64,000 bases of DNA, from NCBI GenBank assembly GCA_949752735.1, contig OX457042.1:38388195-38452194 (forward strand), written 5' to 3'. The position numbers were made by a program, and so were the translations under genes. Shown piece by piece: positions 50,901-63,960 of this stretch; the stretch's first letter is position 1; every line of letters starts with the position of its first letter. Source of the stretch: Lumbricus terrestris (taxonomy: Eukaryota > Annelida > Clitellata > Crassiclitellata > Lumbricidae). The notes under the pieces were generated by a model. It ran no database searches. It was not told the origin of the DNA and saw only the letters and a program-made list of their open reading frames with translations.

Positions 50901-53900
50901 AGTCAATGCCAACAAGCAAATTGGAAAATAAACAAATTCTGAGTCAAGAGTTCAATGGCAGCAAAATATCAGCAGAGTGGATGACAATTCAATTGGAAGT
51001 AAATGTCTGAACATAAGGCCAGCCATTGAAAGCGTTATATTATCCATCCATGGCTGATCATGTGAATTCGATGTGCAGGAGGTCACCTTCGTTAGATTTG
51101 ATCAATTCAATACACCCTAATCTTTTGACGCATCTGGACTAAATTGAAATTCCATCTTTGTAGGCTAAGTCAATCAATCAGAATTTATAAAGTGCTCTTT
51201 CAAGGTCTCAGACGTGCTCCCGCCTGAGATCAAGTAAAAAAATCTTCAACAATTTGTGAAATTGAGAACAGTTTTGGAGGTGTCGCATAGTCAAGGGAAG
51301 CCCATTCCAGGTTGTTGGACCAACCACAGAGAATGAACGCTCTGCATTGTCAGCTCCAATCCGTCCTAAGCTGTGGCACTCAGGTAGTGATAAATCTATC
51401 AACAATCTCTCATGTCTCAGCATATAAAAGAGATACACTACACTGGCTTCATATCAATGGTTGGTCCTGCACCATCATAGACATCAGAGCTGCTTGAGCC
51501 CATTTAAACTCAGCCAGGTCGGTGGTCACTTCATTCATCAACCCATGGAGACAGTCTGACCATCTCTATTCCATATGTCAACTCGACTGCACCATTCGCT
51601 CTTATGTGCAATTCCACTCCGTTGCAATAATCTTCTTGCCATACATACATACATACATACATAACAATACATTAGAACAATCCCTTTAAGCTCTGCTCAA
51701 ATAACTTTTACCTTTTCCAGCTCTATCAAGATACATCTGTCCTCATTCCTTAGACAGCCATGTTGGTTCATCAAATGCACTTCATAAAGTTCAAATACAT
51801 ACATACACGCTGGCTAGTGATGTAAAAATGTGATCACTCATGTGATGCCACTGATATCAATATATTTAAAGAGCCACAGAAAAATATATGCAGACACTAG
51901 AAATGGTACACAATTCTTTGGTTAGAAGCATACAAAGACCCGTAAATTCATGTTAAAACATATATCATACCAGGTATGTTACAATTTAGTCATCTTTCGA
52001 GCAAACTCTAAAGTTCAAAATTTCTCCTATACTCATATACATAATTATACTTAAATCAGCATATTTTACAATAAAATTAATCAGGCAACACATTAGTACC
52101 GGTACTCCATGCTCATTCATTCAATTAACCCCTCATATCATTCATTCAATTAACCCCTTATATCATTCATTCAATTCACCCTTCATATTATTCATTCAAT
52201 TCCCCCCCCCATATATCATTCATCCATTTATTCATTTATTTATTCAATATAGTTTGTATATATATATATTAGGGTGCTTTTAAGGTACATGTGAAATCTT
52301 AAACTCGAATATTTTTTAACGACCAAGTCAGATTATCGTGACAGATCATGAATAACCTCCATATCCAAAATTATATCTTAATAGCTCAACATTTAGGACT
52401 TGCGCAAAGCGACCAAAGTTAGGAACCAGGTTGGATTATAGGCAATATTTTCATGATTCCCATTCTTGCCAGCCTTTGACCCCTTCTGAATGGCCGCTTC
52501 CCAACTAATCAATATTCGTGACAATGACAGCTTATCTTTTGCTTATGTCATGGGTGTCGTGCTGCAAATGGCGGACAGTGTTTGTTTTAATTAATATATC
52601 ATATCGCACTTGGGATGGCTAAATCTACTAGAAAAAAGGCTGAAATCTGGTTGATAGGCAGTACGGAAGATCATTTCAGTTATGCGAAATTACCTACACG
52701 AGGACAGGTTCTGAAGGTGCTTTTTAATTTCCATACACTAAGAAATCAGAGTCTGGATGATAGCGTAAAAGAAACGGCAGCTATGGTACTCCCAATTTGG
52801 GAAAGAGCCCGCATTCCAACGAAGGCTAGGAATCACGTTTGGGATCGGCTACGACATCTCCATAAGGAATGGCAAAACCTTAAGAAAAGTATTTCGAGGA
52901 CGTCAGAAACCGAAGATGGCAAGCGTGAGGCTTTCAAGGATTCCCTGGAGGATCTGTTTGATATTGCCCACAGTGATGCCATGACAATAATCAAGATAGA
53001 AGAGGATCGACAGTTTTTGAAAGCACAGCGTGAGAGAGGACGACGTGGTTCAATGGCAGGTATTGATGTCAAACTTTCAAAGCAAGAAACGAGAGTGGCA
53101 GCAAGATCAGCAGCACTTGCAGAGCGTATGGAACGCTATCGTGCTAGCACAGCTGCTGCAGCGACAGAAGTTTCTGTGTTGGAAAAGTCATCCGAAGAAG
53201 AGGCGTCATCCAGTAGCTCAGAAAAAGAACCAGAACCTTCGACGTCTGCTTGGCCACCAAAACGGCGAAGGGGGACAATCTCTGTCGTTACTCGTGATGT
53301 TGCTGCTGCTCTAGATCGTACCAAAACCAGCAGCAGGAAGGCCTCTCACATTTTGACTGCTCTCGCTGTATCCAATCTTTGTGCAGCACCAGCTGGCGAG
53401 CTGATTATCAGTCCTTCTGCGATTCATCGAGCAAGGAAGGATAGCCGTGCAGCCCTAGCAGCAGAGATTCATGAATCTTTCGATCCGAAAGTTCCTCTTA
53501 CTATTCACTGGGATGGCAAGATCATGCCAGATGCTACAGGAACAGGACGAGGGTGTGTTGATCGCCTTCCGATAATGGTATCTGGTAAGGAGGTGACCAA
53601 GCTATTGGCCATCCCCAAACTCCAATCTGGTACAGCTGCCGTCATGTCAGATGCGTGTTTGGTCGAGATCAGACGTTGGGGATTGGAAGACAGAATCGTG
53701 GCCATGTGTTTCGATACAACAGCGAGCAACACGGGTTGCAAGGGCGGCGTATGCATCAGGCTGGAAACAGAATTAGGAAAGGACCTATTGAACCTTGCTT
53801 GCCGACATCATATTTCTGAAATTGTTCTGGAAAAGGTGTTTTCACTGCATGATTCTGCAAGGTCTCCAAAATTGGAACTCTTTGTTCATTTCCGAGACTT

Positions 53901-56900
53901 CTGGCCACAAATCGATCAGACCAAGTATCGCACAGCAATGGAGGATAAAGATGCAGTACAGCATATCACAGAAATTCGAGATAATGTCATCAGCTTCGCA
54001 TTGCAGCAACTGAGTACTGATCATTACAGAGATGACTACAAAGAGCTACTTGAGCTGACAGTAATTTTCTTAGGAGGAATTCCGCCAAAAGGAATAAAGT
54101 TCAGGTACCCAGGGGCAGTTCATAGAGCACGCTGGATGGCACGTGCGATCTATGCTATCAAAATGTGGCTTTTCAGAGATCAATATCCCATTCAACAACG
54201 TCAGAGCTCAGAGAGGGCATCACGAACATCCTATTCTCAAAAGGTGTGGAATCATTTAGTTCGAGTGTCCCTTTTTGTGACAACAATTTATGTGAAGTAC
54301 TGGTTCACATGTGTCTCACCTAAAGAGGCCCCAAGGAACGATCTTGAATTCTTGAAGGCAATCCACACTTATCAAGACAAGGAAGTCTCACAGGTCGCCT
54401 CAACAGCATTTTCGCGACACCTTTGGTATTTATCAGAGACCCTGGTTGGCCTCAGCCTTTTTGATGATTCAGTCACCGTCAATGAGAAGCAGCGCATGGT
54501 CTACAACATGCAGAACAATCAGGGATCTGATGATCCTCCAAAGAGGATTCCTCCCATACATGATCCACTTACAAAAGCACTGCCCGATTTCGTCTCCACT
54601 TCAACCTCAAAAATATTCAGGATCCTCGGATTGGATGACTCTTTTCTTGAACGAGATCCGCAACAGTGGGAGTCAGAGCAATCATACAATGAGGCAAAAG
54701 ACATCATATCTGCCCTAAGAGTGACGAATGATTTGGCAGAGAAAGGAGTGGCTCTTATGCAGACCTTCAATGAAGCGCTGGTAAGAAATGAGGAAGAGAA
54801 ACAATTTGTTCTGCAAATGGTTGAGTACCATCGAGATAAATTCCCGAAAGCACTAAAGGGAATAAATTATGACGAATAACTGACAGTATTTCCTTTGATT
54901 ATGACATATATCTAATGTTCAAGGTTCTAAAATTGTTTGGATCTCTGAAAATAACAATGAATCACATTGATGACAAAGTCACAAATCTTAAAGGGCTTTG
55001 CGCAAGTCCTAAATTTATTTCGATTTTCACATAATTTGGCAGATAATAATTACTATCATGATGGAACAGAAAACCAACTTGGTCGATGTTTAATTCGAGA
55101 CTTTAATATTTAGACACACCCTAATATATATATATATATATATATTCGTTTAATTGACAGAATAACCAGTCGACATAACGCGACAGTTAACAAGCACAAA
55201 GAAGCAGCGAATAAAGCCTAATAAACATTTTTATACAGCATCTGTGTAATGAAATTTGTATTGTTTTTATTAGTTAGTTCAAATGGATGCGGCCTAGGGC
55301 GCAGGTTGTATTTACCAGGACGTCTATAAGAGAAAAATTTGTGAAGAACATGATCATTGTCCTTAATTATAGCTTTGAAGAGGGTAGCATCAGCAGTCTC
55401 AGTCATAATGTCTGCTTTTGGGGAGTCTAAAGGGAGGAATCCAGCTCGTCTGACACGTCCCAAGAACCTTTCGATGCGGTCGACCTCTCCCACGCTCAGC
55501 AGTCCCCACCAGGTTGGAGAGGCGTACAGCAGATGTGCAACTGTGGTCGCTCGAGACTTCGAGTGATGACATGCAATGCCGGTCCAGGTATGCCATGAGC
55601 ACGCAGCACGCACAGAGCGTAGATTGAGGAGGCACATAGCTTAGGGTATTGTCAACATGCTCCGAAACAGTAAACTGTTCACAGATTGTAACACCCAGTA
55701 TTTTTACAGAAGTAGCTCTTAACTCCTGTGATGGACGACATGGAGGCCAATGAAGCATGTGAGCTCCTCACTACAGCCATTTCCCTGGATGAAGGTCAGA
55801 AGTGCCAGTGATAAACTTTGCCGTGCCAACGCCAGAACCCTGAACAACACTAGCATTTATTTTCTTAATCTGTGATGTTTTCCCTTCAAAGCAGGTGGCA
55901 TGTCTTCTAGGCCCTCTTCAAGGGGACTACTCAGAGGTAGGGCATAACCGGGTACTGACCCAAAAAACCGGAAATTCCGGGTATTTAACACCCAGAAGAC
56001 ACCCGGACCCAGAGGTCATCCGGGTCTGGGTAATTCTTTGATCTTAGACTGCATGGTAGCGTTTCTCTTTGAAGCTCCTGTTACGTCCGTTGATAGACAC
56101 AATTGGACAATTCGCTGCCATATTGATATGACAATATATGCAATATACATTATACAATATGACATAAGCATATGGATCCTTAATTGCATCTTCCTCTGGC
56201 GGCTGACTATCCACGCCTCAGATTCACATTTTGGTGTGACCTTGCACGCGTTACAAATTTATTTAATAATAATAATAATAATAATAACGGCTGAGCTAGA
56301 CATCTTTCTGTGAAATTCGCCGAATCGCTGCCTTTCTCTTTTAAGCCAATGCTATGAGCTGCAATCAATTGGCTGACATAATGGACGACGACTGCCAAGC
56401 GAGAGTTTCTATCTTTGAAGTTTGTGATTACTTTGATGCCTGGACCTGGCAGGTTTCGGTTCAAATTACCTGTGCCGGGTACCCGGCTAAAAAAACGGCA
56501 TCCGGCCATGGCCCTGCTCAGAGGTGTTCCCAACCCCAGTTCGCCCAAATAAAACTGCCCTCAGAAGAGAGTTGAGTAAGCTGTCTGAAAAGAAGGTGGT
56601 GGAGCATCATGAGGTCATTTCAGGTCGTTGGGCCTACCACCGAAAAGCCATGATTCTGCACTGTGGAGGCAAAAAGAGGCAGAAAGCAGACCTTGTACGG
56701 CCGAACAAAGGGAGTGCAAGTGACGAGCACTAAGAGTATGGCTACAGAGCTTGCTATGGTAAGCCTAGTACGCAACACCAGATTAGAGCAGTGATCCTAT
56801 GTATACTTGATTTGCTGCTTGAGGGGACCCAATGGAGAACATCATGCACATAGCAGCATAGCTGCGTGAAGACTTTCTTATTTTCTTGGGGCTATCAAAC

Positions 56901-61085: not shown

Positions 61086-62157
61086 CTAATTTACATAATC
61101 ATAAAAGCATCAACATTATTCAGGAAATCATATCTTTATTTAGTAAATTCCCAAAATTTTAAAAGTAGTTCACACATTCTGGGATAAAGCCATAACTGAT
61201 ACTGTTATCTTATGCAAAAACTGTCATTGAAGTCTATGAAATAGCCACCATTCATCAGTATGTGAACTGGAATCAACACAAACAGAGAGGTCCATGTCAA
61301 ATCAACCAAAATTTACACCTTTTCCCACTCTCCAAACCAGATTTTCTTGATTTATTACCAAAAATTCCTGATCATCTGGTATGAAGAACTGGAAAGCTTC
61401 AAGTGTCTATGTGAAAACTGACCGAGATATGGGCTACTCAAGTTGGTTTGGGTAGGATGAAAAATAAACGCAAATTTGCTTCTGCAAATTTTTTCCATTT
61501 TTACAGAAACATGAGTCTCCAATGTTGCTACAGGTGCCAAAGATTCATTCCAGTGATTGAGAAATAATTTGATTATATGGTGCCATCAAACCATTCACTA
61601 CACCTTCTGGCTGTGCCACCCAAACCACAACCGAATGGCATTATTGAACAAATTCGATATAAATTATGAATGAAATGGAACATTTGTTCAAAAAATCTGC
61701 ACATAAAAACTTTTAAAAGAATTTCCTTATAAAAGGAACAAATGTGAATGCGGAAATGATTCATAACTTTGCAATCATTATTGAGACTGCCTATGCTACT
61801 TACTTTCAAATTACATAATTATGCAGTGCAATTGCTAAATGCATCATCACGAATAGCAAAAATCACAGATCTTGACAAACTAATTCAATGACCTAATCCT
61901 AGGAGTACCAATAAACGTTTCATGCCGAGTGCTGTGTCTTGTCAGAGGGGTTGTCCAAAAGAGTTGTCCAAAGGAGGTCATAGTCCGGTTACCAAAGGAT
62001 TAGAGGTGGCAGAATAGCTGCTAAGGTGGGTGCGATTTAGGTCGAGAATTAGAAGTTGGAAGATCAGGTGATCAGGGTAAGAATCCCTAAAGAGGCAAGA
62101 CTTTAGTTTCGAATGGAAAGCCCAAGGAGAGGTGGATATAGAAGCCTGACCAACAAA
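61086..62157 (-). other. Intron 5' of FLII exon 1, nothing recognised before the LINE
   Basis: No first LRR exon or start codon of FLII is visible here on the minus strand. AGGTCCATGTCAAATCAACC at 61289-61308 resembles an interspersed-repeat end but has no partner. Confidence 0.5.
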
Positions 62158-63960
62158 GATTCCAGCGGACGATCTCATTTCAGCCGATGAATTCCACCAG
62201 TTCTTCGACAAGAAAGTGGCTGACGTGAGAGAGTCCACTGCTGATGCTGCTGACCCAACCTACATACCTACCTCTCACTGTCTACCATCATTCTCGTCAG
62301 TTACAGTTGATGACATTCTGGGGCTCATCCAGTGCACTCCAAACAAGCAGTCAACGGCCGATCCACTGCCCACGTGGCTGCTGAAGGAATGCGCTGGAAC
62401 GATCGCCCCATTTATTACTCAACTGGTGAACTACTCTATGGCAACTGGCAAAGTTCCAACGGCCTTCAAAGTAGCAACCATCACTCCGCTACCAAAGAAA
62501 CCTAGCTTAGATACTGCGGACGTCAAAAACTATCGGCCAATCTCCAACTTGTCCGTTATGTCAAAAATTCTGGAAAGGGTCGTATCCAGGCAACTTGTTC
62601 ACTATCTCAACATCAACCAGTTATTCCCAGACAGGCAGTCGGCCTACCGTGCTTTCCACTCCACCGAGACGGCTCTCGCAGATATTCTGTCTGACATTCT
62701 TCTTGCGATTGACTCTGGCAACTTCTCTCTTCTTTCACTCCTGGATCTGTCTGCCGCATTCGACACTGTCGATCACACTATCCTGCTCCAGCGACTGCAT
62801 CTTTCTTTTGGTTTGTCTTCCACTGCTTTACAGTGGATGACCTCCTACCTCACTGACAGACAGCAATGTGTCCGCCATGCCGGCTCCTCTTCAAAATCCA
62901 CCTTCATTACCTGTGGCGTTCCTCAAGGCTCAGTCCTGGGACCCATTCTCTTCCTCCTCTATACCGCCGATATCTTAACTCTAATATCCAACCATGGTCT
63001 GCAGGGTCATCTCTACGCTGATGACTCGCAGATCTATGGCTTCTGTCGTCCTTGTCCAACTGAAGTCCAGAATCTGCGATCCATCTCAACGAGCTGCATC
63101 AGTGACATCGCTGACTGGATGAAATGCAACCGACTGCAACTTAATTCATCCAAGTCGGAATTTCTCTGGTGCTCGTCTACGCGCAGAGTGGGAAAACTAG
63201 ACCGCAGCCCATTCGTCATTGGTGGGGATGCTGTCGTGCCAAAGAGTGAGGTCCGCGATCTCGGTCTTCTACTCGACAGTAACCTGTCAATGACACCACA
63301 TATCACTGCAGTTGTGCGAACCAGCTTCGGAATACTGAGACAGCTGAGATCTGTGTCTCGGTCACTCACACAGGAAGTGACACGCCACCTGATACAAAGT
63401 TTAATTTTGGGCCGAATCGATTACTGCAATGTCGCCTTTGCTGGCTTGCCACAGTGCAGTATCATTCGGCTTCAGGCGGTCATCAATGCTGCTGCTCGTC
63501 TGGTCCTGCGATTGAAAAAATTCGACCACATTTCTAGCGCGATTCGAGACCAGCTTCAGTGGCTTGGCATAGGTGCCCGCATCAATTTCAAACTTTGTAT
63601 CCTAATGTACAAATGCCTCAACAATTGCGCACCAGCCTACCTCGCGGCCAACATCAAACCGCTAGCAGACGATCCAAGGAGGTCCCGGCTGCGATCGTCC
63701 AAGACCGCCGACGTGTTCATTCCTGCGACGAAAACAAAAATGGGCGATCGCGCCTTTCGCGTCGCAGGCCCACGCGCCTGGAACAGTCTTCCATCAACCA
63801 TCCAGGATATCAAAACTGTATCAACTTTTAAAAAACAATTGAAGCTACACTTGCTCTCGAGCTCATGACATTTACTCTGACAGTTGACATTATGCGTGTA
63901 AAGCATCCTAGAAGTAGCTTGCTACTGACGATGCTATACAAATTGTCTGAATTACATGGA
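62158..63960 (+). mobile_element. 5'-truncated CR1-like LINE
   Basis: In-frame pol codons are readable from about 62158 (ISADEFHQFFDKKVAD), before the first ATG at 62216. The endonuclease domain is missing, so the copy is 5'-truncated. The 3' end ACGATGCTATACAAATTGTCTG at 63917-63940 resembles the tails of the other fragments in the window. Confidence 0.88.
62216..63868 (+). CDS. CR1-like LINE reverse transcriptase, C-terminal 550 aa intact
   Basis: Copies LINE RNA into DNA at the target site. Visible RT motifs: NYRPIS (105-110), LLDLSAAFDTVDH (175-187, catalytic D177), GVPQGSVLGP (234-243), YADD (267-270, catalytic DD), then the thumb and the C-terminal RAFRVAGPRAWNSLP. The frame is open to the stop at 63866-63868. 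The true protein would start further upstream with an APE-type endonuclease that is absent here, so ATG 62216 is only the first internal methionine. Intact RT without stops suggests a young insertion. No promoter is expected in a truncated copy. Confidence 0.92.
   Translation: MADVRESTADAADPTYIPTSHCLPSFSSVTVDDILGLIQCTPNKQSTADPLPTWLLKECAGTIAPFITQLVNYSMATGKVPTAFKVATITPLPKKPSLDTADVKNYRPISNLSVMSKILERVVSRQLVHYLNINQLFPDRQSAYRAFHSTETALADILSDILLAIDSGNFSLLSLLDLSAAFDTVDHTILLQRLHLSFGLSSTALQWMTSYLTDRQQCVRHAGSSSKSTFITCGVPQGSVLGPILFLLYTADILTLISNHGLQGHLYADDSQIYGFCRPCPTEVQNLRSISTSCISDIADWMKCNRLQLNSSKSEFLWCSSTRRVGKLDRSPFVIGGDAVVPKSEVRDLGLLLDSNLSMTPHITAVVRTSFGILRQLRSVSRSLTQEVTRHLIQSLILGRIDYCNVAFAGLPQCSIIRLQAVINAAARLVLRLKKFDHISSAIRDQLQWLGIGARINFKLCILMYKCLNNCAPAYLAANIKPLADDPRRSRLRSSKTADVFIPATKTKMGDRAFRVAGPRAWNSLPSTIQDIKTVSTFKKQLKLHLLSSS

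Follow-up and report, generated by a model that had tools for sequence, protein, structure and literature searches.

A probably autonomous, very recently active hAT-like DNA transposon in the earthworm Lumbricus terrestris

A 64,000-nucleotide stretch of the Lumbricus terrestris genome (NCBI GenBank assembly GCA_949752735.1, contig OX457042.1, positions 38,388,195 to 38,452,194 of the forward strand), referred to here as the window, contains a complete transposon of 2,854 bp at window positions 52270..55123 (+ strand). The window can be placed with good confidence on chromosome 7 (61.74 Mb) of assembly wcLumTerr1.1. The element runs from TAGGG to CCCTA between limits that are common to 58 full-length copies, and for one of these copies an empty paralogous site was identified. 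Very probably, this is a cut-and-paste DNA transposon that belongs to a deep hAT-like lineage, is autonomous and was active very recently. A first-pass annotation of the letters alone had proposed a complete transposon at this position, and both the element and its limits stand.

The transposase gene is a single open frame of 754 codons (52615..54879, + strand), uninterrupted as had been claimed, with 345 bp of noncoding sequence ahead of it and 244 bp after it. The outermost perfect terminal match is 7 bases, TAGGGTG at 52270..52276 (+) and its inverted counterpart at 55117..55123 (-), which reads CACCCTA on the + strand. Inward of TAGGGTG there are only imperfect, gapped arms, located subterminally at 52290..52410 (+) and 54995..55118 (-). 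These long arms, noted in the first pass, are real, as their local alignment scores 71, compared to 26.5 ± 4.3 and a maximum of 49 in 1,000 dinucleotide shuffles. Also confirmed, within these arms, is a perfect 20-bp subterminal inverted repeat at 52391..52410 (+; element positions 122-141) and 54995..55014 (-; 110-129 bp from the right end), a probable binding site for the transposase. TAGGG is found at each end of all 58 full-length copies and fits the hAT terminus consensus [T/C]A[A/G]NG (PMC6027215), as had been suggested.

The target-site duplication, ATATATAT, occupies 52262..52269 on the left and 55124..55131 on the right. Both flanks of the window copy consist of a (TA)n run, hence the duplication is unreadable from this copy alone, and its length of 8 bp is set by other copies. 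The equal 8-bp flanks of the first-pass annotation are therefore uninformative in the window itself, but an 8-bp duplication is established by 48 of the 58 copies and by the empty site.

Copies in the genome and their target sites

A protein search of the genome scored 59 places, each 100% identical to the window protein over 754 residues and without stops. This number is a lower bound, as the places were picked for the best protein score from an initial scan with 7,623 candidates. The genome contains 83 exact matches to the 38-bp left end, together with five sites at two mismatches, five at three and none at one; the reversed control pattern has no occurrences. Further copies, for which the first-pass annotation had proposed a search, number in the dozens. 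No second copy was found within the window. Sequences were fetched for 58 of the 59 scored places, with the window as the 59th; one copy is interrupted, which leaves 58 full-length copies, the one in the window and those at 57 loci. The remaining 24 exact left ends are known from the 38-bp end alone.

The copies are nearly identical. Relative to the majority sequence, 37 of the 58 have no differences, 15 differ at one base, two at two, three at three and one at five; any two copies differ on average at 1.05 bases and at most at 6. They are scattered over many chromosomes in unlike flanks. Only one of 1,711 locus pairs, an AT-rich repeat, has more than 80 common 15-base flank words. Because copies at many sites are near-identical, recent activity, as claimed in the first pass, is hard to doubt. 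The element has transposed very recently and may continue to do so, and the encoded protein probably drives this movement. Dozens of near-identical, open-frame copies in a 1.06-Gb annelid genome represent a natural case of a very recent or ongoing transposon burst. Seven variable sites in the gene all fall at third codon positions; we rejected this as a sign of selection, because the search had been restricted to copies that score perfectly at the protein level.

One of the ten left ends with two or three mismatches was read further, over 2.7 kb (L067, G000 C5:65186400-65189100). It is 94.7% identical, and its frame is disrupted by shifts and stops. Given this divergence and the near-identity of the young copies, an older wave seems to have preceded the very recent one. 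The interrupted copy (L039, G000 C11, from 19198964) is a young one; 1,740 bp are inserted into its left part. The right junction of the insertion reads ...GGG followed directly by TTAA, at element position 109, and looks like what we take to be a piggyBac-type insertion at a TTAA target.

An exact 8-bp duplication flanks 48 of the 58 full-length copies; with flanks paired at random in 1,000 shuffles, the average was 1.9 copies and the highest count 6. Of the 58 copies, 22 lie in simple repeats, scored as such where a 20-base flank is periodic with a unit of 1-4 bases; examples are (TA)n and (TACA)n, both of which fit an nTnTAnAn target. Outside simple repeats, 27 of 36 copies have the 8-bp duplication. 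Among these 27 targets, 21 have T at position 2 and 24 have A at position 7. The pattern nTnnnnAn fits 18 of the 27 (9.9% in nearby sequence) and a central TA is present in 11 (7.9% in nearby sequence).

One copy (L011) lies inside a tandem array. A neighbouring unit (L003 873-1119), 86% alike over 255 columns, has a single copy of the target CTATGCAC, around which 55 columns are gap-free with 2 mismatches. This unit is an empty paralogous site for the L011 insertion. Two further units of the array are less alike at the target and were rejected as empty sites, as were the spanning matches of joined flanks for L042 and L050, which involve AT-rich repeat and gap differences at the target.

The copies that lack an exact 8-bp duplication are L009, L018, L028, L048, L051, L054, L055, L057, L059 and L063. 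A 9-bp direct repeat is present at the junction of L048 and of L051, and L059 matches at 7 of 8 bases. In several of the others a few additional bases separate one end from the target; these may be traces of an abortive excision or of processing of the ends.

The predicted transposase and its relatives

The protein begins with a helical domain (residues 1-145; 52615..53049, +) that has the motif LFDIAHxDA and is without zinc ligands; indeed, residues 1-255 contain no cysteine. This domain is presumed to bind DNA. Residues 261-744 (53395..54846, +) are predicted to form an RNase H-like catalytic core with a helical insertion, matching residues 135-609 of Hermes, the housefly hAT transposase. 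A Foldseek search, a check of the RNase H fold that the first pass had proposed, found Hermes as the best family, with six chains above the P element and a best E of 1.9e-5. At E <= 0.001 the only other family was the P-element transposase (6p5a, 4.3e-4; 6pe2, 8.7e-4).

Three candidate catalytic residues were identified on the + strand, with conservation given here for 50 aligned family members. The first, D300 (HWDGK, 53512..53514), is present in 49 of 50 and follows directly on a strand at 295-299. The second, D367 (FDTTASNTG, 53713..53715), is in all 50 and likewise directly follows a strand, at 361-366. The third, E709 (NDxAERG, 54739..54741), for which the first-pass annotation had named no candidate, is also in all 50 and sits on a C-terminal helix (706-718). 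CRHH at 396-399 (53800..53811, +) is conserved in 50 of 50, as are C396 and H399 individually, and is presumably the counterpart of the hAT CxxH motif. An RW pair at 506-507 (54130..54135, +; R in 50 of 50, W in 49 of 50) is the proposed counterpart of Hermes R318-W319. Of the motifs listed earlier, HWD at 300, residue 367 and CRHH are where they had been placed; RW is at 506-507 rather than at 507-508. Residue 710, which adjoins E709, is K in the window protein and R in 48 of the 50 members.

Relatives of the protein are numerous, at least 313 by protein search and at least 314 by profile search at E <= 0.001 (in both cases 8,000 candidates were scored and the best 120 listed). The best 120 of the 313 are 36-90% identical, and for 106 of these 120 the match extends over 90% or more of the query. 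None of the best 120 has a precomputed Pfam domain or an informative name, and precomputed Pfam domains are likewise absent among the relatives listed by the profile search. Thus, automated annotation will probably overlook the family or give it a wrong name. Of 137 fetched proteins, some of them fragments, 119 have all three motifs HWDxK, FDTT and NDxAE. In a tree of 125 sequences, built with a quick method from family members only, the window protein is placed beside P0001 (90% identical) with full support. Few of the relatives listed have named hosts (aphids, a phylloxera and a moth); because the tree contains few of these, we infer no host-to-host transfer from it.

Pfam gave little for the window protein itself, with no match better than E 0.23. 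Two families were listed at E up to 10, a range in which HMMER filters discard most matches above E 0.1, and hAT models such as the dimerisation domain are not among the two. Such models are also absent among the best 25 of the 45 families that match the 50 aligned members at E up to 1; these 25 matches are weak and dispersed (best E 0.0023, with no family matching more than five members).

Placement relative to hAT and other transposons

The element probably works like a hAT transposon, in that the end consensus, the duplication length, the target preference, the key residues and the fold agree. The hAT residues D, D, R, W and E (D180, D248, R318, W319 and E572 in Hermes) have proposed counterparts in D300, D367, R506, W507 and E709. 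The spacing from D300 to D367 is 67 residues, compared to 68 for D180-D248. Also shared with Hermes are the nTnnnnAn preference, the 8-bp duplication and, in the predicted structure, an RNase H-fold DDE core with a helical insertion. The window protein differs in its length (754 residues rather than 612), in a longer stretch from D367 to RW and in having no BED finger. In the mechanism that we propose, the transposase would bind the subterminal inverted repeats via its non-zinc N-terminal helical domain and would cut at TAGGG/CCCTA using D300, D367 and E709 in the Hermes-like core; the element would then insert into 8-bp targets of the nTnTAnAn type, duplicating them.

Several observations weigh against this placement. 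Foldseek TM-scores are low (at most 0.44 by target), rmsd is at least 12.6 for the Hermes rows and structural identity to Hermes is only 9-11%. Sequence searches matched no hAT profile and no solved hAT transposase. An exact duplication is missing in 10 of the 58 copies. The 7 bases of perfect terminal repeat fall below the minimum of 8 given for hAT in PMC6027215 and the 10-25 given in PMC3942097. An N-terminal BED finger is stated for all hAT transposases (PMC10368747), and a BED-like pattern is present in none of the 137 fetched family proteins. With no BED finger, no hAT model among the profile matches listed and only 7 bases of perfect terminal repeat, we class the element as a hAT-like lineage and not as a confirmed hAT member. 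The first-pass reading, an autonomous and recently active element with a very divergent hAT-like transposase and an LFDIAHxDA domain in place of a BED finger, is supported.

According to PMC3942097, Ac, Buster and Tip elements share a length of 2.5-5 kb and 8-bp duplications with the window element and differ in having terminal repeats of 10-25 bp; no model for hAT was matched here, and the N-terminal domain is a different one. hATx-6 of Hydra also makes 8-bp duplications but has a BED finger and the Pfam hAT dimerisation domain, according to PMC8721813, neither of which was found here.

Less likely than not, but possible, is a rank outside hAT: the family would then form a superfamily of its own, as a sister group to hAT, with a Hermes-like core retained by deep descent and an N-terminal DNA-binding domain peculiar to it. 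The 8-bp duplication, nTnnnnAn, the [T/C]A[A/G]NG ends, the RW and C..H motifs and the fold point instead to hAT. In its fuller form, held equally tentatively, this would be a eukaryotic superfamily in which a helical domain replaces the BED finger, spread through animals and with a currently mobile member in the earthworm. It is compatible with the proposed mechanism and concerns lineage rank only. A family that combines a core, ends and a target preference of this type with a different N-terminal domain would separate the role of the core from that of the finger.

We consider it improbable that the copies are non-autonomous passengers, moved by another, unseen transposase while their own protein is inactive. 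K at position 710 is in line with inactivity; the open frames at all 59 scored places and the retained catalytic positions argue for a working enzyme, an argument weakened by a scored set that favours intact frames.

Still less likely is a P-element-like transposon. P elements also make 8-bp duplications and have internal inverted repeats near 120 bp, and their transposase, an RNase H core with an insertion, is the one other family at E <= 0.001 in Foldseek. The six Hermes chains score better, however, and P is not among the best 50 VIA-align rows, which does not amount to an exclusion. Members of the P superfamily have an N-terminal THAP (C2CH) finger and a GTP-binding insertion; a THAP finger requires cysteines, and no THAP-type zinc ligands are present here. 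P-element ends and targets are unlike those of the window element, which are hAT-like.

A domesticated host gene or its segmental duplication, for which one might cite the identical protein at all 59 scored places, is scarcely credible, as that set was chosen for the best protein score, the copies lie on many chromosomes in flanks that are unlike for all but the one AT-rich pair, and their individual duplications and the empty site already contradict it.

Neighbouring features in the window

Immediately to the left of the hAT-like element is a 25-bp tandem repeat of 3.6 copies (52113-52201). Further to the right, at 62150-63868 (+), a long open frame encodes a reverse transcriptase domain (RVT_1, E 6.5e-30) and is probably part of a LINE-type element.
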